A stretch of DNA of 44,605 nucleotides from Oscillospiraceae bacterium (lineage in GTDB: Bacteria > Bacillota > Clostridia > Oscillospirales > JAAYXM01), in the NCBI GenBank assembly GCA_017559985.1, contig JAFYPW010000006.1, forward strand, positions 1 through 44,605, written 5' to 3'. The notes under the pieces were generated by a model. It had not been told where the DNA came from and ran no database searches. It worked only from the letters and a program-made list of their open reading frames with translations. Shown here piece by piece: positions 5,019 to 37,140 of the stretch. A program made the translations under genes and the position numbers. The number at the start of each line of letters is the position of its first letter. Position 1 is the first letter of the stretch.

Positions 5019-6296
5019 TTACTTATCCTCAAATCTGATAGTTGCGCTTCTTGCGTGAGCAGAAAGCCCCTCGGCTTCGGCAAAATATGCTATATCGTCG
5101 AAAACGCGGGAAAGCGCCTCTTTTGTGTAATAGGTATACTGCGATTTCTTGACAAAATCGTCAACCGAAAGCGGGCTTGAAAACTTTGCCGTGCCGCTTG
5201 TCGGAAGCGTGTGGTTCGGACCTGCAAGGTAGTCCCCGAGAGCTTCGGGGCAGTGGTGACCCATAAAGATTGACCCGGCGTGGCGAATCTTCGGGAGCAG
5301 CAGAAGCGGGTTTTCCACCGCAAGTTCGAGATGCTCCGGCGCAAGATCGTTTGAAATTTCTATTGCCTCATCTATATCCTTTACTATAATTATCTTTCCG
5401 TTATTGTCAATTGATGCGCGCGCAATCTCACAGCGCGGAAGTAAAGAAAGCTGCCTTTCTATCTCCTCTGAAACCTTCCCTGCAAGGTCTTGCGAGTCGG
5501 TGACGAGAACGGCAGACGCGAGCCTGTCGTGCTCTGCCTGAGAGAGAAGGTCTGCCGCCACGAAAGACGGGTTTGCGCTATCGTCGGCAACAACCAAAAT
5601 CTCGCTCGGCCCGGCTATCATATCAATCGCAACGCGTCCGAAAACCTGACGCTTCGCCTCGGCAACAAACGCGTTTCCGGGGCCTACTATTTTGTCAACC
5701 TTCGGAACGCTCTCCGTACCGTAGCAAAGCGCGGCAACAGCCTGCGCGCCGCCGATTTTGAAAATTCTCCGAACTCCCGCAATGCGCGCCGCGGCAAGGA
5801 TTACGGGGTTTATCTTTCCGTCGCGACCGGGCGGCGTTGTTATAACAACCTCGCCCACCCCCGCAACGAGCGCGGGGATTGAGTCCATCAGCACGGTTGA
5901 CGGATACGCCGCCGTGCCGCCCGGGACATAGAGCCCTGCGCGGTCAAGCGGGCAGATTTTCTGGCCGATAAAGCTTCCGTCTGCTTCTCTTAACTCAAAG
6001 CCCTCTCTTTTCTGTGCGCTGTGGAATTTTCTTATGTTCTCCGCCGCGCGGGTGAGGATTTCGCGAAAGCGGGGTGATACGGAGTTATAGCCTTCCTCAA
6101 TTTCCTGCTCTGTCACTTCAAGTGAGGAAAGACGCGCGCCGTCAAATTTTTTGCAGTATTCAAAGAGCGCGGCGTCGCCTCTCTCTTTAACGTTCTCTAT
6201 AATCTCCGCGACGGTGTCTCCGACGGTGGAGAGCCCCTCCACTCTTGCGAATATTTCCGAGGCAGGGACTTCCGAATATTTTAAAATCTTTATCAT
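5019..6296 (-). CDS. hisD: Histidinol dehydrogenase
   Basis: 425-residue zinc enzyme that oxidises L-histidinol to L-histidine in two NAD-dependent steps. The family signature is clear: GLYVPGGTAAYPS, IDMIAGPSEILVVAD, SQAEHDRLASAVLV (zinc Gln and His), and MGHHCPEALGDYLAGPNHTLPT with the catalytic Glu/His. The length is typical. The start overlaps the hisG stop by 4 bases. Confidence 0.98.
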   Translation of the reverse strand: MIKILKYSEVPASEIFARVEGLSTVGDTVAEIIENVKERGDAALFEYCKKFDGARLSSLEVTEQEIEEGYNSVSPRFREILTRAAENIRKFHSAQKREGFELREADGSFIGQKICPLDRAGLYVPGGTAAYPSTVLMDSIPALVAGVGEVVITTPPGRDGKINPVILAAARIAGVRRIFKIGGAQAVAALCYGTESVPKVDKIVGPGNAFVAEAKRQVFGRVAIDMIAGPSEILVVADDSANPSFVAADLLSQAEHDRLASAVLVTDSQDLAGKVSEEIERQLSLLPRCEIARASIDNNGKIIIVKDIDEAIEISNDLAPEHLELAVENPLLLLPKIRHAGSIFMGHHCPEALGDYLAGPNHTLPTSGTAKFSSPLSVDDFVKKSQYTYYTKEALSRVFDDIAYFAEAEGLSAHARSATIRFEDK

Positions 6297-27459: not shown

Positions 27460-28158
27460 TTACAGTGGATTGCTTTTTATCTTTGCAAAGCGGCGGGGGT
27501 ATTTTGCAGGCGTTTCGCGTACCTTTTCTATGACGAGCACGGTATGTGTTATTCCCGTGTCATAGAGGGGATAGTCGAACCGTTTTACAAGCTCACCGCC
27601 GAGAGTTTTTATGGCGTTTTTTGCACCGTTTAACTCCTCCTCACAGTTTTCCGCCTTCATTGCAAGGAACACGCCGCCGACTTTGACATAAGGCAGGCAG
27701 AGCTCGGAAAGCACGGAAAGGTCTGCCACGGCGCGCGAGGTTGCAATATCAAAGCCCTCGCGATAGCCTTTTTTTACGGCCTGTTCCTCGGCGCGCGCGT
27801 GGATACACTCAACATCCGAAAGTGCGAGAGATTCACAAACGCCGGAGAGGAAGTTTATTCTCTTTCCGAGGCTGTCGAGAAGAGTTAAAGAAATATCGTC
27901 GCGCGCAAGGCGGAGCGGAAGACCGGGGAAACCTGCTCCGCAGCCGACGTCTATAACGCGCTTTCCCGAAAAATCATATGAACCCAACAGCGCGAGCGAG
28001 TCTGCAAAGTGGCGTATGCAGACCTCACGCGGGTCGCAGATTGCCGTGAGGTTCATAACCTTGTTCGTTTCAAGGAGCATCTCCGAAAACTTCTCAAAAC
28101 GTGCGGGGTCCGCCTCAACCCGGAGGCTTTTGAAAATATCGCAAAGGAGCTCTCTCAT
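27460..28158 (-). CDS. rsmG: 16S rRNA (guanine-N7)-methyltransferase RsmG
   Basis: 232-residue SAM-dependent methyltransferase that makes m7G527 in 16S rRNA. The SAM loop is [18 protein letters not shown], followed by [12 protein letters not shown], and [19 protein letters not shown] supplies the substrate-side motif. It overlaps mnmG by 4 bases, the usual gidA-gidB pairing. Confidence 0.97.
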
Positions 28159-30038
28159 ATGCTTTTTTCTCCTTTTTCGTTTTTTAAATACAGCAGAAGC
28201 GCGGCAATATCGGCGGGGCTGACACCCGAAATGCGCGATGCCTGACCTACGGAGGCAGGTTTTATCTTCGACAGCTTCTGGCGCGCCTCGGTGCGAAGCC
28301 CCATAAGCGACATATAGTCAATGTTTTCTGGCAGCTCCTTTTCTTCAAGGCGGCGGAACTTTTCTATCTGCTCCTGCTGTCGCGCTATATATCCGTCATA
28401 TTTAAGCGAGATTTCAACGCTCTCGCACACATCTCGTGAAAGTTTGCCCCGCAAGGTGTCAAAGCGCGCAACCCCGTCATATGACAGCTGCGGACGGCGG
28501 ATGAGATCGGAAAGCCTTGCACCTGTCGTAAGCGGAGATGTTCCTCTCTCTGAAAGGAACTTATTTATCTCCTCTCCCGGCGGAATTACCGTCTTTTCAA
28601 GGCGGGAAAGCTCCTGCGCTATCGCGGCTTTTTTGCTTAACATACGGTTGTATTTTTCCTCGGAAACAAGGCCGATTTCATATCCCTTCTCCGTAAGACG
28701 GAGGTCTGCATTGTCCTGACGGAGCCAGAGGCGGTATTCCGAGCGCGAGGTCATCATACGGTACGGCTCGTTTGTGCCCTTTGTCACGAGGTCATCAACC
28801 AGTGTTCCTATATACGCGTCTGCGCGGCCGAGGACAAACGGTTCTTTCCCTGAGAGCTTTCTTGCCGCGTTTATGCCCGCAATAAGCCCCTGTGCCGCGG
28901 CTTCCTCATAGCCGGACGAGCCGCAGAACTGCCCTGCGCCGTAAAGGCCCGAAACGGCTTTTGTTTCAAGTGTCGGGTAAAGCGCGAGCGGGTCTATGCA
29001 GTCATATTCTATGGCGTACGCAAAGCGCATTATCTTCGCGTTTTCAAGCCCGCGGATTGAGTGGACTATAAGAAGCTGAATGTCCTCCGGAAGTGAGGAC
29101 GAAAGCCCCTGAATATACATCTCGTCTGTCCCGAGCCCCATCGGCTCGATAAACAGCTGATGACGCTCTTTGTCCGCAAAGCGCACCACTTTGTCCTCGA
29201 TAGACGGACAATACCTTGGTCCGACACCCGAAATGTTTCCCGAAAAGAGTGGTGAGCGGTGCAGGTTTTCGCGGATTATGCGGTGTGTTTCGGCATTTGT
29301 GTATGTAAGGTGGCAGATAGCCCGGTTTTCTGTCTTCTTTTCCGTATCAAACGAGAACGGATAGATGTCCTCGTCGCCCGGCTGCGGCTCCATTGCGGAG
29401 AAGTCGACCGAGCGCGCGTTTATGCGCGGCGGTGTTCCCGTCTTGAAACGGCGGAGCGGAAGTCCCTTTGAAAGCAGGTTCTTCGTAAGCTCAACTGCGG
29501 CAAACATACCGTCGGGCCCGCCCTCTCGGCTCACCTCGCCGACGGTTGTTCTTCCGCCGAGGTATGTGCCAGTTGCGATTATGCAGGCAGAAACAAAATA
29601 CTTTCCGCCCGAAGCGGTAAGAACATACGTTACTTTGCCGTTCTCTATTCCGACATCGACAATCTCCGCCTGGATGAGGTCAAGATTTTCCTGCTCTTCG
29701 AGAGCTCTTTTCATACGCGCCTGGTAAGCCCTGCGGTCTGCCTGGGCTCGGAGAGAATAAACCGCGGGGCCTTTGCCGCGGTTGAGCATACGGTACTGTA
29801 TGCACGTATCGTCCGCGGCGCGCGCCATCTCGCCGCCGAGCGCGTCAATCTCGCGCACAAGGTGTCCCTTTGCCGTTCCGCCTATTGCGGGGTTACAGGG
29901 CATATTGCCCACCGAGTCGAGATTTATGGCAAAGCAGGCAACGCTCGCGCCGAGCCTTGCCGCCGAAAGTGCCGCCTCGATGCCCGCGTGTCCCGCGCCG
30001 ACAACGGCTATATCATATTTTCCTGCGATGTATTCCAT
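28155..30038 (-). CDS. mnmG: tRNA uridine-34 carboxymethylaminomethyl enzyme MnmG
   Basis: 627-residue FAD protein that, with MnmE, installs (carboxymethyl)aminomethyl groups at wobble U34. The dinucleotide fold is [19 protein letters not shown]. The GidA signatures [20 protein letters not shown] and [15 protein letters not shown] carry the conserved cysteines. A C-terminal helical domain follows. mnmE is not in the window. It follows the CYTH gene by 11 bases, so it is probably expressed from the promoter at 32882-32910 with the two genes before it. Confidence 0.98.
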
Positions 30039-30049
30039 AGCTTCTTCCC

Positions 30050-30637
30050 TTATTTATATAATAATGCGCGCGCATACTTTGACAGAGCCTCCTCACGAAG
30101 AGGAAAATGCTCTTTTAATTCTTCTCCGAACTTCAAGAGCTTCTCCACATCTCCCGAAACAAGCTCAATCTCAATCTCGGAAAAAGCGGTGTCCCGTCCC
30201 AGGATCCCCTCGTCGTATGACAGGATGAATTTCATTTCCGGAAGCGTTACCTCACACTCCCATCTTGTAAACGAAACCCTTGCTACGCACACAAGCTCTT
30301 CTTTTAAAAACAGCTCTGTCGGCGCTCCCTGCTTCGAGAGAAGGGTAAGCGCTTCCTTTATATCGTCGCACTCGGCATTCCACTCCCCGCGAAGGGAGAG
30401 CGCACCTGAGCGCTTTTTGTTTACTTTTACACAGAATACACTCTTTCCGTTTTCTTCGCGGCGACGCAGCGTTATGCCGAGCCTCTTTGCAAGGTCATCC
30501 TCGGTGTCGAGATATTCTGTCCTCATCGTGAGGGTGCGTATTTCGCCGCGGTTTTCAGAAACGGGCGGATATGAAAAAAGCTCGTCCTTTGAAAACGGTG
30601 CTGCGACCGCATATTTAAGCTCAGTTTCAAACCCCAT
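30050..30637 (-). CDS. CYTH-domain (triphosphate tunnel) protein
   Basis: 195-residue protein with the CYTH ExExK signature at the N terminus (E4-T-E6-L-K8 in FETELKY). Tunnel Arg/Lys/Glu residues alternate along the strands: [28 protein letters not shown], and C-terminal [12 protein letters not shown]. Related enzymes hydrolyse inorganic triphosphate or thiamine triphosphate, or make cAMP. The sequence alone does not decide which. The start ATG has GGGAGG seven bases upstream and overlaps the end of the ATPase-like gene by 11 bases, so the two are coupled; mnmG follows after 11 bases. Confidence 0.85.
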
Positions 30638-32855
30638 TCTTCTTCCTCCCGCAAAGTGCCGCAGGAACGGTCAGCAAAAGCTCGCCTGCGGTGAGATATG
30701 CAAACGTTATCCACTGTGAAATGAATTCGGATTTCATAAAGTGCATCGAAAGCCAATATACGAAAGGTGTCAGCACGCCGAGTATCGCGCCGGAGATATA
30801 TATCGCCTTGCCGCACCGCCCGAGGCTTCTTGCCCGCGCGAGCGCAAGCGGCGGAAATGTATCCGTAATAAGGTTTACGAGGAGAATCTGCAAAGCCGTC
30901 ATCGGAAATCCGAAGCCACATACGACGGAAAGAAGAACGCCGAGTGCCTCGGCAAGATTTGCCGAAAGGAGATACTCCGATGTCCTTTCCGTTGCGCCGC
31001 GTGCCACCTTTCCGAAAACGATTGCACGGTCGGCACAGTGTTCCCCGCCCGAGATTATCGAGCACGGCTCCTTTGCGGCATCCTGTGCGCGGATATCAGA
31101 GATTCCGACGTCTGCCGCGGCAAGTGCGACAGCGTCGCTCACCTCACCACCCTGCATACACACGGTTTTGCCGAGATTTTTAAATATGTTGACGATTCTT
31201 ATCTTGTCCTGCACTGAAAGACCCGCAAAAACAAAGGTTTCCCGAAGTGCGCGGCGCAGCTCGTCATCCGGCAAAGCCGCAACATCGCGCCCGAAGAGCA
31301 TCTTTTCCGCACTTATGCCGAGCATGGATGCGCCAAGGGAAGCTCGCTTTGCATCCGCCGAGGTGAGGAGATATGTCATAACTCCCGCGCACGAAAGCTT
31401 TTCCGTGTCGGGCGCTTTTGCTTCATCACCCTCTGCCCCCGTTGCCGCAAAACCGAGAAACACAAGCCCCGTGTCACACGGCACATCGTCGCCCGAGCGC
31501 ATACCGATTGCCGTGAGGTGGTTGCCCTCGGCACGGAGCGCACGGATGCTTTCGCCAATCTCCTCACGGTCAAAGTCCGTGAGAGTTCGGATTTTGCCGA
31601 AATCCCATATGAGCTCCGAACGGTAGAGAATTTCCTCTGCATCACCGCCGGTGTATGAAACGGTGGTGTCCCCTGCGCGGTGAAGCGTTGTGTAAACCTC
31701 GCCCGAAAACTCGCCGATTTTCGGAAAATTCTCTGAAACTTCCTTCTCGTCGCACTTGTGTGCGGCATAGGCCGAAAGCGCGGGAAGCGCCATATCGCAC
31801 AACAGAAGACCGTAAATGAACGGAACTGTGTCCTCCTCCTGAGGCGAATGAATTCTGCCGTTGGTATATGTTGCCGAAACACCGAGCTTCGGAACGTCGG
31901 TAATAAAGACATCGCACTCGCCAAGAGCCTCGATGCTCTTCATATTCTTTGCCGAAAACCCTGCCTTTGAAAGCCTCTCCGCCGCGGCGGAGAGCGCAGA
32001 AAGCGCTGCTGTGAATATGCTCTCCGGAATTATTGCAGCGGCAAGTGCCACGCTCGAAAGAAGAGCCGGGAAAAATTCTGTTTTGTATATAAGCGATGCG
32101 ACAAAAACAACAACACAGACGGAAAATACCACAGCGTTTGTTCTTGTCATAAGCCTTCTTATCTTTGAAAACGTCGGCGCGCTGTCTTTTTCGGGCGTGT
32201 CCGAGAGCGTGGTGCGGCGACTCCGCTCAGTTGAGAGCCCCGTTGCGACGACAACGCCGTCGCCGCGACCGCGTATGACGACCGTTCCTTCAAACGCGCA
32301 GTTGTCACGACGCTCGGCAGGGATTTTGCCGAGGAGATAGCTCTCCGCATCCTTCCTCGAATCCGCGCTTCCGCCGAGTGCTGTCTCGTCAACAACGAGC
32401 CTTTCCGTTGAAATAAGGCGCACGTCGGCAGGGACAACCCGCCCCGGTTTTAAGGTTATAATGTCACCGACGACCAGCTCGTCTGCCGGAAGGCGCATCT
32501 TCGCGCCGTTGCGGAGCACGGTTGCATGGATTATCGACGCATTTACCGCAGAGGCAATCACGCGGTGTGCACGACGGCGGCATTCTGCCGAAAACAAACC
32601 GTTTATGACTATTACCGCAACGATGAGAGCCGCTTCAACCACGCCGCCGAGAAGCGCGGAGAGGATTGCGGCAATCGCGAGCATATATATGACGGGGCGC
32701 GAAAATGCGCCTCGCGCAAATTTAAAAAAAGAAGAATTGTCAGAGCTTTTTGCTTTCTCGGACGAGCGCAGACGCGCCTCCTTGTCTGAAAGCCCCGTTT
32801 CGGGGTTTACATCAAGCGAGCTGAGAGTTTCTTCTATGCTTAATTTGTGATACAC
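30627..32855 (-). CDS. P-type-ATPase-like membrane protein with degenerate catalytic motifs
   Basis: 742-residue protein aligned by eye along its length with P2-type cation ATPases: N-terminal HKLSIEETLSSLDVNPETGL, paired helices near 57-90, VVGDIITLKPGRVVPADVR, and later helices. The catalytic motifs are broken. TGES is replaced in VDETALGGSADS, DKTGT by TDVPKLG (Asp320 kept), the cytoplasmic TGD by LTSADAKRA, and GDGVNDAPAL by GGEVSDAVAL. Yet the TM4 Pro-Glu (277-278) and the TM6 NLITD Asn661/Asp665, ion-site positions in Ca-type pumps, remain. There is no frameshift. It is shorter than usual (about 880), with about eight helices. Start: a GTG at 32855, nine bases after AGGAG; the ATG at 32864 directly abuts that site. 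Likely a pseudo-pump with a binding or regulatory role. Confidence 0.85.
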   Translation of the reverse strand: MYHKLSIEETLSSLDVNPETGLSDKEARLRSSEKAKSSDNSSFFKFARGAFSRPVIYMLAIAAILSALLGGVVEAALIVAVIVINGLFSAECRRRAHRVIASAVNASIIHATVLRNGAKMRLPADELVVGDIITLKPGRVVPADVRLISTERLVVDETALGGSADSRKDAESYLLGKIPAERRDNCAFEGTVVIRGRGDGVVVATGLSTERSRRTTLSDTPEKDSAPTFSKIRRLMTRTNAVVFSVCVVVFVASLIYKTEFFPALLSSVALAAAIIPESIFTAALSALSAAAERLSKAGFSAKNMKSIEALGECDVFITDVPKLGVSATYTNGRIHSPQEEDTVPFIYGLLLCDMALPALSAYAAHKCDEKEVSENFPKIGEFSGEVYTTLHRAGDTTVSYTGGDAEEILYRSELIWDFGKIRTLTDFDREEIGESIRALRAEGNHLTAIGMRSGDDVPCDTGLVFLGFAATGAEGDEAKAPDTEKLSCAGVMTYLLTSADAKRASLGASMLGISAEKMLFGRDVAALPDDELRRALRETFVFAGLSVQDKIRIVNIFKNLGKTVCMQGGEVSDAVALAAADVGISDIRAQDAAKEPCSIISGGEHCADRAIVFGKVARGATERTSEYLLSANLAEALGVLLSVVCGFGFPMTALQILLVNLITDTFPPLALARARSLGRCGKAIYISGAILGVLTPFVYWLSMHFMKSEFISQWITFAYLTAGELLLTVPAALCGRKKNGV

Positions 32856-32881: not shown

Positions 32882-32910
32882 ATTATATATGTAAAAATAT
32901 AAAGTGTCAA
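32882..32910 (-). promoter_or_regulatory. Promoter of the ATPase-like/CYTH/mnmG/rsmG operon
   Basis: Minus strand TTGACA (32905-32910), 17-base spacer, TATAAT (32882-32887), a perfect consensus. Confidence 0.9.
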
Positions 32911-32930
32911 GAAAAGCAAGCAGTAAAAAC

Positions 32931-32967
32931 AAAAAAACGACCGTCGTGACGCGACAGTCGTTTTTTT
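32931..32967 (-). terminator. Terminator after the 54-residue gene
   Basis: ACGACCGTCG / CGACAGTCGT hairpin (one mismatch), flanked by A and T runs. Confidence 0.8.
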
Positions 32968-33003
32968 GTATACAATTTTGATACTTGGCAAATCGGAATT
33001 TGA

Positions 33004-33669: not shown

Positions 33670-35487
33670 ATGCCCGTATATGAATCCATTAAAAATGCGG
33701 ATAACAAAATAGTCATTTCCGCACAGAACAAGGATTCCGTCGTATTCGGCTGGGACAAGGTTCTTTCTGCGCTCACAGACAAGGTTTCTGCCGGTGCAAA
33801 GACAATCGCTCTTGACGGCTGGTACGGAATCAACTACGAAAAGATTGCCGAAGCTCTTGCTGCGAAGATCAAGGCAACAGGAAAGGACGTTGTTTTAGTT
33901 CCTGCATACGAGCTTTTCGTTTCAAGAGAAGACATCATCGCTTACAATCAGCCCTACGTTACAGATGACCCCGGTTTCGGTAAGGTAAACAAGACCGGCG
34001 TTGTTGAAGACATCCTCTGCAAGGACGCAGTTGCAGCTGCAAAAGAAAAGCTCGCTGCAAAGGACGGCAAGGTTGTTATCATCTACGGTATGGCAGCTTC
34101 CATCAAGGAGTTTGAAAAGCTTCTCGATGTTAAGTGCTACATAGACAACACACACCAGAAGGTTCAGTGGGATATGTGGACAGGTAAGCTCCCGACATTC
34201 GGCTGTAAGGAGCCGACAAAGGGCTATGACTGGAAGGAATACAACTATTCCGACTACTACATGCTCAAGCGCCAGAAGGACTATATGTACGGCGCAATGG
34301 ACTTCTACGTTGAGAACTACTTCGAGGATGACCTCGTGCTTGTTCCGAGAAAGGCATATGACGAAATTATGTCCACTCTCGTTAAGTACCCGATCCACGA
34401 AGTCAAGATCTTCTCTCCGGGTCCGTGGGGCGCATACCGCTATGAGCAGATGGACTACGGCGTAGAAGGCCTTGCAAACAACGCATGGAACAAGATTGCA
34501 GGTCCGGAGCTCCGCATCCTCATCGACTTCGGCGGCGAGAGAAGCATCAACATGCCGATGCTCAACGCTATGCAGTACGGTAAGGAACTCGTTGGTGAGC
34601 TCATTGACAAGCAGTATCCGGGTCTCTTCCCGCTTGATATCTGGCTTGATGACGGCTGGCACCCGACAAAGCAGCCGGCAGAGAGAATCTCAATGCCGAT
34701 GCACATCCACCCGTCAAGCAAGTACGTTGCTGACAACTTTGACGAGCCGCTCGGCCGTTACGAAACATACTACATCGCAGAAGCTTACGAAGGCGCTAAC
34801 ACCTGGATGGGCTTTAAGGACGATGCTGATATCGAAGAGTGGGAGCGTCTCTGCGAAGAGTCACAGAACATCACTCCGATCGAAAACTGGAAGGACTTCA
34901 TCTCCACCTGGCCGTCCAAGGAAGGCGACCTCTACCTCATTCCTCCGGGGACAATGCACGGTCACGGCGGAAACCAGATGGTTCTCGAGATGGATACAAA
35001 CCCGTCTATCAACGGTACTGAGTACTCCTTCTTTGAATATGACTTTGCAAGACCGTCTTGGGACGATGACGCAAAGAGCATGACAGGCAAGCCGCTCAAG
35101 ATGCACCTTGAACACGGCAGAAATATGGAGAAGACAAGAAGAGCTTCCTGGGTTAAGGAAAACCTCCTCTCCCAGCCGCACGTTATCAAGTGGACTCCGG
35201 AATACTACATCGACCAGTACAAGACATACTCAGTTATGCCGTACCACGTTGAGAGAATCCACTTTGAGAACGTTGGTGAACTCTCCACAGAAGGCAAGTT
35301 CATGCATATGTTCACTCTTACAGTAGGTAAGAAGGTTACTGTCCGCTCCAAGAAGAACCCCGAGCTCTTTGCAGAGTGTGACAAGTTCCAGACTCTCGTT
35401 GTTCCGGCAACTTTCGGCGATTACGAAATCATCAACGAAGAGGGCGGCAGAGTTACCTGCGTAATCCAAAGATGGAAAAAAGGCTAA
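33670..35487 (+). CDS. Kinase-like domain fused to a class I mannose-6-phosphate-isomerase-like cupin
   Basis: 605-residue two-part protein. Residues about 20-235 look like a P-loop NMP/uridine-kinase fold without a working P-loop. LDGWYGINY (48-56) sits where GxxxxGKS/T belongs. VVIIYG (135-140) followed by LLDVKCYID resembles the Walker B strand and lid of uridine kinases. Residues about 275-605 resemble type I phosphomannose isomerase. The metal-site pattern is His345-x-His347 (usually Gln-x-His), Glu365 in YETYY, and His430 in GTMHGHGG. It probably isomerises a ketose/aldose or its phosphate. It has an AGGAGG ribosome site and is the first gene of the sugar operon. A 13-bp hairpin separates it from the rest and may give it higher expression. 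The kinase-like assignment is by eye; the isomerase part is firmer. Confidence 0.75.
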   Translation: MPVYESIKNADNKIVISAQNKDSVVFGWDKVLSALTDKVSAGAKTIALDGWYGINYEKIAEALAAKIKATGKDVVLVPAYELFVSREDIIAYNQPYVTDDPGFGKVNKTGVVEDILCKDAVAAAKEKLAAKDGKVVIIYGMAASIKEFEKLLDVKCYIDNTHQKVQWDMWTGKLPTFGCKEPTKGYDWKEYNYSDYYMLKRQKDYMYGAMDFYVENYFEDDLVLVPRKAYDEIMSTLVKYPIHEVKIFSPGPWGAYRYEQMDYGVEGLANNAWNKIAGPELRILIDFGGERSINMPMLNAMQYGKELVGELIDKQYPGLFPLDIWLDDGWHPTKQPAERISMPMHIHPSSKYVADNFDEPLGRYETYYIAEAYEGANTWMGFKDDADIEEWERLCEESQNITPIENWKDFISTWPSKEGDLYLIPPGTMHGHGGNQMVLEMDTNPSINGTEYSFFEYDFARPSWDDDAKSMTGKPLKMHLEHGRNMEKTRRASWVKENLLSQPHVIKWTPEYYIDQYKTYSVMPYHVERIHFENVGELSTEGKFMHMFTLTVGKKVTVRSKKNPELFAECDKFQTLVVPATFGDYEIINEEGGRVTCVIQRWKKG

Positions 35488-35557: not shown

Positions 35558-35593
35558 TTATATATTTAAAACGAAGTTTTAAGGAGAATGAGT

Positions 35594-36310
35594 ATGAATA
35601 TTCTTGCTATCGGCGCACATCCCGATGACATCGAAGAATCCTGCGGCGGAACTCTTGCAAAATATGCAAAGCTCGGCCACAAGGTTTTCACTGCAACTGC
35701 TACAAACGGAAACGTTGGCTCGTCCACACTTTCGATGGAAGAGATTGCAAAAGTCCGCAAGGAAGAGGCTCGCCGCGCAGCAGCTATAATCGGTGCGGAA
35801 TATATCTGTCTTGACTATGACGATGAAATGTTCTTTGAGGACAAAGCGGCCCGTCTTGCTTTTATAGACCTCGTCCGCTACTGCAAGGCTGATGTTATCC
35901 TCACACACAGCCCGCACGACTATAACCCCGACCACGAGCTTACTGCAAAAATCGTAAACGACATTGCTGTTATGATTCCGATTGCAAAGCTCCCGACAAA
36001 GAACAAGCCCTATGACAAGATTCCGCTCATTGCGTACTTTGAGCCGGTTAACGGTCTCGGCTTCATTCCGACGGACTATGTTGACATCTCTGAATTTATC
36101 GAAACAAAGCGCGCTATGTGCTATGAACACCAGAGCCAGATTTCCTGGATGCAGGATAACTACAAGGACACTATGGGCGGCAAGGACTTCTTTGAAGGCG
36201 TTGAAACAAGAGCAAAGTTCTACGGTCTCCAATGCGGCGTTGACTATGCAGAGGGCTTCCGCCTCTCCAACGATGCTTTCCGCGTAGTTCCGTACCGTTT
36301 CCTTCCGTAA
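35594..36310 (+). CDS. PIG-L/LmbE family deacetylase
   Basis: 238-residue zinc-dependent N-deacetylase-family protein. The metal motif is AIGAHPDDIEESCGG (His-Pro-Asp-Asp). The distal ligand region is HSPHDYNPDHELTA, with the His-x-x-His pattern typical of the family. Relatives remove acetyl groups from N-acetylglucosamine-containing lipids, thiols and saccharides; here the substrate is probably a sugar handled by the operon. Start: the ATG at 35594 is eight bases after GGAG. An in-frame ATG at 35588 is too close to that site. Its TAA overlaps the next ATG by one base. Confidence 0.9.
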   Translation: MNILAIGAHPDDIEESCGGTLAKYAKLGHKVFTATATNGNVGSSTLSMEEIAKVRKEEARRAAAIIGAEYICLDYDDEMFFEDKAARLAFIDLVRYCKADVILTHSPHDYNPDHELTAKIVNDIAVMIPIAKLPTKNKPYDKIPLIAYFEPVNGLGFIPTDYVDISEFIETKRAMCYEHQSQISWMQDNYKDTMGGKDFFEGVETRAKFYGLQCGVDYAEGFRLSNDAFRVVPYRFLP

Positions 36311-37140
36311 TGATGAAGCACGAGATTATAAATCACGCGGTTTTCGGGGAATGTCTTTTTGTAACAAACGGAACCGTTGAGGTTAAAATTCCCCTCTCTT
36401 TCGGTCTCCGCATAGGTCATTTTTCACTTGTCGGCAAAAAGAACGTCTTCTTTGAACAGCCGGATGATATGACCGACCTCACAACGCCGGAGGGTTGGAG
36501 AATCCGCGGCGGACACAGAATGTGGCTTGCGCCTGAGGGTAATTTTGACTACTTCCCGGACAACGCTCCGATAAAGTACGAGATTTCAGACGATTGCATA
36601 ACTCTCACACAGGAAGAGGACCCCTGGCTTTCCGTGATAAAAAGCTTTGTCATAAAGCTTGACGGAGCAAAGCTGCACATCACCCACAAAGTGACGAACA
36701 CGGCAAAAGAGGCGAGGACGTGCTCGCTCTGGCCCATAAGCGCGATGGCGGCGGGCGGTGTGGAATATATCGACCTCCCTCTCCGCGAAAACGGATTTGA
36801 CCCGTTCCGTCATATTGCGCTCTGGGACTACACAACCCTTGACGATGAGCGCGCAGAGTATTCGCGCAATCAGATAAAGATTTCGCATATGCCGACTGAC
36901 GAGCGTTATAAAATCGGCATCGGTCATCCTTTGTCTCCCGTGCGCTACGAGCTTTCCGACACGGTGTTTTTAAAGCACTTTGAGGTTTTAAAAGAAAAGG
37001 CTTATCCCGACGGCGGAGTCTCTCTTGAAACCTTCTTCTGCCGCCATATGGCAGAGGTTGAAACGCTCTCGCCGGTCTGCACAATTGAAAGCGGGCAGAC
37101 GGCGGAATACTCCGAAACGTGGGAGCTTTTACACAAATAA
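36310..37140 (+). CDS. DUF4380 / mutarotase-like protein
   Basis: 276-residue protein with a galactose-mutarotase-like beta-sandwich look. Features: VKIPLSFGLRIGHFSLVG, the WRIRGGHRMWLAPEG segment with the conserved Gly-Gly-His, then LHITHKVTNTAKEARTCSLW and WPISAMAAGG. It resembles DUF4380-type proteins found in carbohydrate clusters; the activity of that family is not established to my knowledge. It may interconvert anomers of the sugar consumed by the neighbouring isomerases, or bind it. Translation is coupled to the deacetylase (TAATG). Confidence 0.65.
   Translation: MMKHEIINHAVFGECLFVTNGTVEVKIPLSFGLRIGHFSLVGKKNVFFEQPDDMTDLTTPEGWRIRGGHRMWLAPEGNFDYFPDNAPIKYEISDDCITLTQEEDPWLSVIKSFVIKLDGAKLHITHKVTNTAKEARTCSLWPISAMAAGGVEYIDLPLRENGFDPFRHIALWDYTTLDDERAEYSRNQIKISHMPTDERYKIGIGHPLSPVRYELSDTVFLKHFEVLKEKAYPDGGVSLETFFCRHMAEVETLSPVCTIESGQTAEYSETWELLHK

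Follow-up and report, generated by a model that had tools for sequence, protein, structure and literature searches.

Probable conversion of an operon calcium pump into a non-pumping regulator or scaffold in one ruminant-gut genus

What could keep a P-type ATPase gene intact once its catalytic motifs have degenerated? This question is raised by a locus in the window, by which we mean the whole stretch of 44,605 nucleotides of Oscillospiraceae DNA that was analysed. A first-pass annotation had described an unbroken frame of 742 codons behind a perfect promoter, with the motifs of the phosphorylation cycle altered and the cation-coordinating residues of the membrane kept, and had suggested selection for ion sensing, ion binding or a partner-protein role. 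The description of the gene holds. The frame runs on the minus strand from a GTG codon at 32855 to a TGA stop ending at 30627 with zero internal stops, the promoter scores 12/12, and the start is backed by AGGAG 9 nt upstream and by homologous start codons in the orthologs of three other species (TTG, TTG and ATG). The gene, which we call a pseudo-ATPase, opens an operon with the following features.

32929 to 32969, minus strand: terminator-like hairpin upstream of the promoter, setting the pseudo-ATPase unit apart from the upstream sequence
32882 to 32910, minus strand: sigma-70 promoter, TTGACA-17-TATAAT
30627 to 32855, minus strand: pseudo-P2-ATPase gene, 742 aa, GTG start, 8 predicted transmembrane (TM) helices
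30050 to 30637, minus strand: CYTH-domain protein, its start overlapping the end of the pseudo-ATPase gene; same order in sister genera; a remnant in species G003
28155 to 30038, minus strand: mnmG, conserved neighbour in the operon
27460 to 28158, minus strand: rsmG, conserved neighbour in the operon

Elsewhere in the window, two long ORFs (33670-35487 and 36310-37140) with no Pfam match at 1e-3 flank a PIG-L deacetylase gene (35588-36310).

The protein belongs to the P-type superfamily (P2 subgroup) by descent, given homology across its A, P/N and TM domains and the overall P-type fold. Pfam, NCBIfam and PDB searches identify it as a P2-type ATPase relative whose closest solved structure is LMCA1 (lmo0841; PMR1/SPCA type; 7.4e-57 by sequence). 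PF00122 (5.7e-34) and PF00690 (7e-8) both score above gathering, and TIGR01494 is passed with 94.2 bits against a cut-off of 62.3, so automatic annotation would label this presumably dead pump as a pump. It fails the P2A Ca2+-ATPase equivalog TIGR01522 (197.6 bits against a cut-off of 798.3). Structure prediction, one of the checks proposed in the first-pass annotation, returned a P-type fold: an AF2 model built from 18 sequences, which replaced an earlier model from 6 sequences (pLDDT 65.7), has a mean pLDDT of 81.7, N-domain blocks at 84-93 and eight TM helices. Its best structural match is LMCA1 in the E1-Ca state (Z 30.8, 708 residues aligned, rmsd 7.0), and a chain of the MgtA dimer is also among the best matches (Z 30.2, rmsd 9.1). 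By synteny the pseudo-ATPase derives from an LMCA1-type pump, with which it shares fold, domain order and, in most members, the TM4 PE and TM6 NxxTD motifs. It differs from such a pump in lacking the DKTGT, TGES, ATP-site and DPPR residues as well as TM9-10, in being 742 rather than about 865 aa long, and in having its constraint moved to the A and N domains. The sites at issue in the window copy are these, all on the minus strand.

32364 to 32375, minus strand: TGES site of the A domain, degenerate (GGSA)
32022 to 32027, minus strand: TM4 Pro-Glu, kept; the Glu is Tyr in G001
31881 to 31898, minus strand: DKTGT site, degenerate (DVPKLG, with a 6-residue deletion common to five species)
31641 to 31649, minus strand: KGA nucleotide site of the N domain, degenerate (GGD)
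31425 to 31436, minus strand: DPPR site, degenerate (AEGD)
31356 to 31364, minus strand: TGD site, degenerate (TSA)
31128 to 31151, minus strand: GDGVNDAP hinge, degenerate (GGEVSDAV); relatives have GDGISDAP, GDSISDAP, GDKMSDVP and GDRISDAP
30948 to 30959, minus strand: TM5 Asn/Glu (NLAE, N-x2-E), kept; gone in G001
30861 to 30875, minus strand: TM6 NLITD, kept; SLITD in G001

All of the motif changes reported at first pass were recovered, and the FDSxRK motif of the window copy is likewise deleted or altered. In SERCA numbering, which we use for all catalytic positions, E183, K352, T353, G354, T355, F487, R489, K492, K515, R560, DPPR, D627 and N706 are gone in all five species examined in the genus, and the GDPTE loop is absent from all five copies. 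Where a phosphorylatable DKTGT would stand, motif I reads D[VIM]P with the 6-residue deletion (ELP in G003). The position of the dephosphorylation Glu of TGES is occupied by S, R, S, R and F across the five species, and ATP-site F487, K492, K515 and R560 are respectively deleted, E, G or A, and H, T or S. Relatives of the window copy keep D703 and D707 in the hinge and replace N706 by S. Four of the copies extend to the C-terminus, and in these the TM6-7 loop is shortened and TM9-10 is missing. From the established mechanism of P-type ATPases, the loss of these residues (TGES Glu, DKTGT, the ATP site, DPPR and TGD) should make ATP binding and the phosphorylation cycle impossible. The cytoplasmic chemistry was said to have been lost uniformly, but the loss is not quite complete: all five copies retain equivalents of T625, K684 and D707, and the relatives of the window copy still have D703.

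The loss is shared across the genus. Orthologs, 48-57% identical to the window copy, are present in 5/5 species examined in the genus; four of the five contigs have named records, all of them MAGs of Oscillospiraceae, and goat colon or rectum is the source of three. The DKTGT and ATP-site deletions are common to five separate species-level assemblies, which excludes chance, and no congener has a normal-motif version at this locus. In all four species examined from the family's other three genera, the same slot, directly before CYTH-mnmG-rsmG, is filled by a canonical DKTGT pump of 862-866 aa. In a phylogenetic tree, the dead copies of the five species group as a single clade with 100/100 support beside the operon pumps, on a stem so long (1.92) that the tree does not settle which of the operon copies lie closest to it. 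A single dead clade beside operon pumps of the same slot means that the loss happened once, and in place. No further members of the clade turned up among 394 searched genomes of the order. Descent from the active P2 paralog of the genus is rejected, since that paralog falls in a different clade of the tree from the dead copies, which lie next to the operon pumps. Viral spread is likewise rejected, as none of the viral contigs contained the pseudo-ATPase. Separately, 35 contigs filed as viral (IMG/VR; L076-L110) encode P-type ATPases; all 15 of those translated contain DKTGT, the contigs are probably prophage flanks or host DNA, and a few exceed 300 kb.

Selection on the pseudo-ATPase is purifying. 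The tree-wide omega for the clade is 0.160 (2dlnL 873 against omega = 1), which rules out a pseudogene, and unsaturated pairwise estimates lie between 0.11 and 0.20. These values come from only five species, none more than 57% identical to the window copy, so that dS is near saturation; for the canonical pumps dS is saturated and absolute omega is unusable. In a neutral simulation, 0.5 substitutions per site brought identity down to 38% and introduced no fewer than 6 stops, against the 0 stops and 48-70% identity seen. With its catalytic residues lost and purifying selection in 5/5 species, the protein qualifies as a pseudoenzyme by sequence and selection. The first-pass annotation had named normal motifs in close relatives, or dN/dS near 1, as grounds for abandoning a selected pseudo-enzyme. 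Homologues throughout the genus carry the same altered motifs, normal ones occur only in the family's other genera and omega is far below 1, so neither ground was found at genus level.

The target of this selection has also moved, from the membrane and the P domain to the N-terminus and the A and N domains. Within the clade, omega is lowest in the A and N domains (0.105 each) and highest in TM3-4 (0.26) and TM7-8 (0.32); values of 0.18-0.26 across TM1-6 are relaxed but still selected, which leaves room for a membrane role. Identities among G001-G003, given for the pseudo-ATPase and then for the active paralog of these three species, are nearly equal in the A domain (0.78 and 0.81) and the N domain (0.65 and 0.71) but far apart in the P domain (0.59 and 0.90) and in TM1-6 (0.40 and 0.92). 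In four comparisons, each against a canonical set, 0/1000 permutations matched the shift of constraint between the N domain and TM1-6. The dead clade even exceeds the operon pumps of the sister genera, which are presumably active, in conservation of the N-terminus and N domain. Examples of conserved surface residues are C186, C368, R334-T343 and G385-V387.

We therefore favour, as the probable explanation, a true pseudoenzyme: a membrane-anchored pseudo-pump kept for interactions of its cytoplasmic A and N domains. In this model, the capacity to bind ATP and to be phosphorylated and dephosphorylated would have disappeared from the Ca2+-type P2-ATPase of an ATPase-CYTH-mnmG-rsmG operon a single time, in the common ancestor of the genus; all known species still carry the protein. 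The pump fold would persist as an anchor of eight TM helices bearing folded A and N domains. The protein would neither transport ions nor turn over ATP; through the surfaces of these domains it may bind a cytoplasmic or membrane partner and act as a scaffold, tether or regulator. Since selection today is strongest on these two domains, partner binding through their surfaces is the most likely action, and a tightly held N domain without its nucleotide site points to a protein-binding role. The origin in place, the shared loss, the purifying selection and the shift of constraint are results of the analysis; the loss of activity is deduced from the residues, and the partner is a proposal. The partner-protein part of the functional suggestion made at first pass fits our results.

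Precedents exist for such use of the pump fold. Na,K-ATPase binds Src, and its non-pumping or scaffold pool uses cytoplasmic A/N regions for protein binding without transport (PMC6152704). In that case an active enzyme moonlights, whereas the pseudo-ATPase is dead throughout its genus. MgtA, a top-ranking structural match, forms dimers through its N and P domains, which can thus serve as an interaction surface (PMC10925321); unlike the pseudo-ATPase, MgtA is active. The trypanosome AdoMetDC prozyme (PMC5201418) is likewise a catalytically dead relative kept by selection, but its fold is unrelated and its partner is known.

No partner of the pseudo-ATPase was found, and the operon offers no obligate one. 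The CYTH protein, which evolves at a similar speed (50-59% identity), is rejected in that capacity because an in-frame deletion has reduced it to a remnant in G003, where the pseudo-ATPase is full length and the operon is left in place; the locus thus tolerates gene loss while the pseudo-ATPase is kept. The remnant (L034, G003:C34, about 5780-5960) joins MASEIEL to ELVSGSEEE, and the deletion apparently lies between two EIEL-coding repeats. A defence role is also rejected, as PADLOC gave no match.

A narrower form of our best model would make the protein a regulatory subunit that pairs with a working pump, as in a prozyme-like heterodimer, and tunes it through N-, P- and A-domain contacts. Canonical active P2 paralogs of 891-893 aa, 79-83% conserved, are present in G001 (C79), G002 (C11) and G003 (C8) (L021-L023), and the N domain of the pseudo-ATPase is conserved despite the lost ATP site. 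Homodimerisation of MgtA via the N and P domains (PMC10925321) and the enzyme-activating dead paralogs known elsewhere (PMC5201418) also agree with such pairing. However, the searches of G000 and G004 (86% and 84% complete) turned up the pseudo copy as the sole P2-ATPase, the paralog comes from a different P2 clade (near families f2/f10), rather than being the operon copy, and was possibly acquired by the genus, and the A and N domains are both better conserved than P. We consider this form unlikely, though it is the main variant of our model.

Ion sensing, the first-pass reading in which TM4-TM6 ligands bind a cation and signal through the cytoplasmic domains, is disfavoured and appears improbable. 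The TM4 Pro-Glu and TM6 Asn-x3-Asp on which it was built are present in the window copy, as is the TM5 N-x2-E, and the full set (PE, TM5 N/E and TM6 N/T/D) is complete in three species, with only PE visible in G004, where the contig ends. The window copy keeps 6/6 ion ligands against 9/18 other invariant TM residues, a borderline difference (Fisher p = 0.05) that is not significant in the other species. Against this reading, G001 has replaced the TM4 Glu by Tyr and lost the TM5 Asn and Glu and the TM6 Asn, and the membrane segments are the least conserved region and have lost the most constraint. Retention of the ion site as the main target of selection is therefore not supported, on omega by segment, on the ligand statistics and on the TM1-6 identity of 0.40.

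Residual HAD chemistry, or another activity of the P-domain pocket such as that of a phosphatase, is very unlikely. The invariant T625, K684 and D707 are accompanied by D351 and D703 in four of five copies each, and this core is intact in G001, G002 and G004. However, motif I is DxP with a deletion, and the P domain shows a strong loss of constraint. The four copies are not the same: D703 is gone in the window copy and D351 is E in G003, and this loss of different acids in different species argues that phosphoryl chemistry is dispensable.

We give even less credence to a slowly decaying pseudogene whose frame survives solely because of the polar effect that stops would have on mnmG-rsmG. The gene is the first in an operon with conserved housekeeping neighbours, and in the species that carry both it has changed more quickly than the active paralog. 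Polarity, however, bars stops and not missense changes, and it does not account for an omega of 0.10 in the A and N domains; moreover, CYTH was cut out in-frame in G003 with the operon still in place. Neutrality is rejected on omega and on the simulation. An assembly or binning artefact can be dismissed, since, even though all named relatives are MAGs, the same deletions recur, within a syntenic operon, in five independent assemblies.

Pseudokinases and pseudophosphatases are familiar from textbooks, but we know of no conserved pseudoenzyme in the P-type ATPase superfamily. No report of a conserved P-type pseudo-ATPase was found in the literature searched, whose coverage stops short of subscription journals, and no paper in the library searched combines 'P-type ATPase' with 'pseudoenzyme'. 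It is thus a tentative proposal that this former Ca2+ pump represents the first-described P-type pseudo-ATPase lineage, a dedicated membrane-anchored regulator in ruminant-gut Oscillospiraceae whose A and N domains, no longer binding nucleotide, would read or tether a partner. With the pump dead throughout one genus and an active ortholog at the corresponding position in sister genera, the locus offers a clean natural experiment on what these two domains contribute outside catalysis, and it makes functions of P-type ATPases other than pumping open to test.

The A domain (C186) and the N domain (C368) each contain a cysteine that is invariant in the dead clade and specific to it; the position of C186 is Met in all canonical pumps compared.
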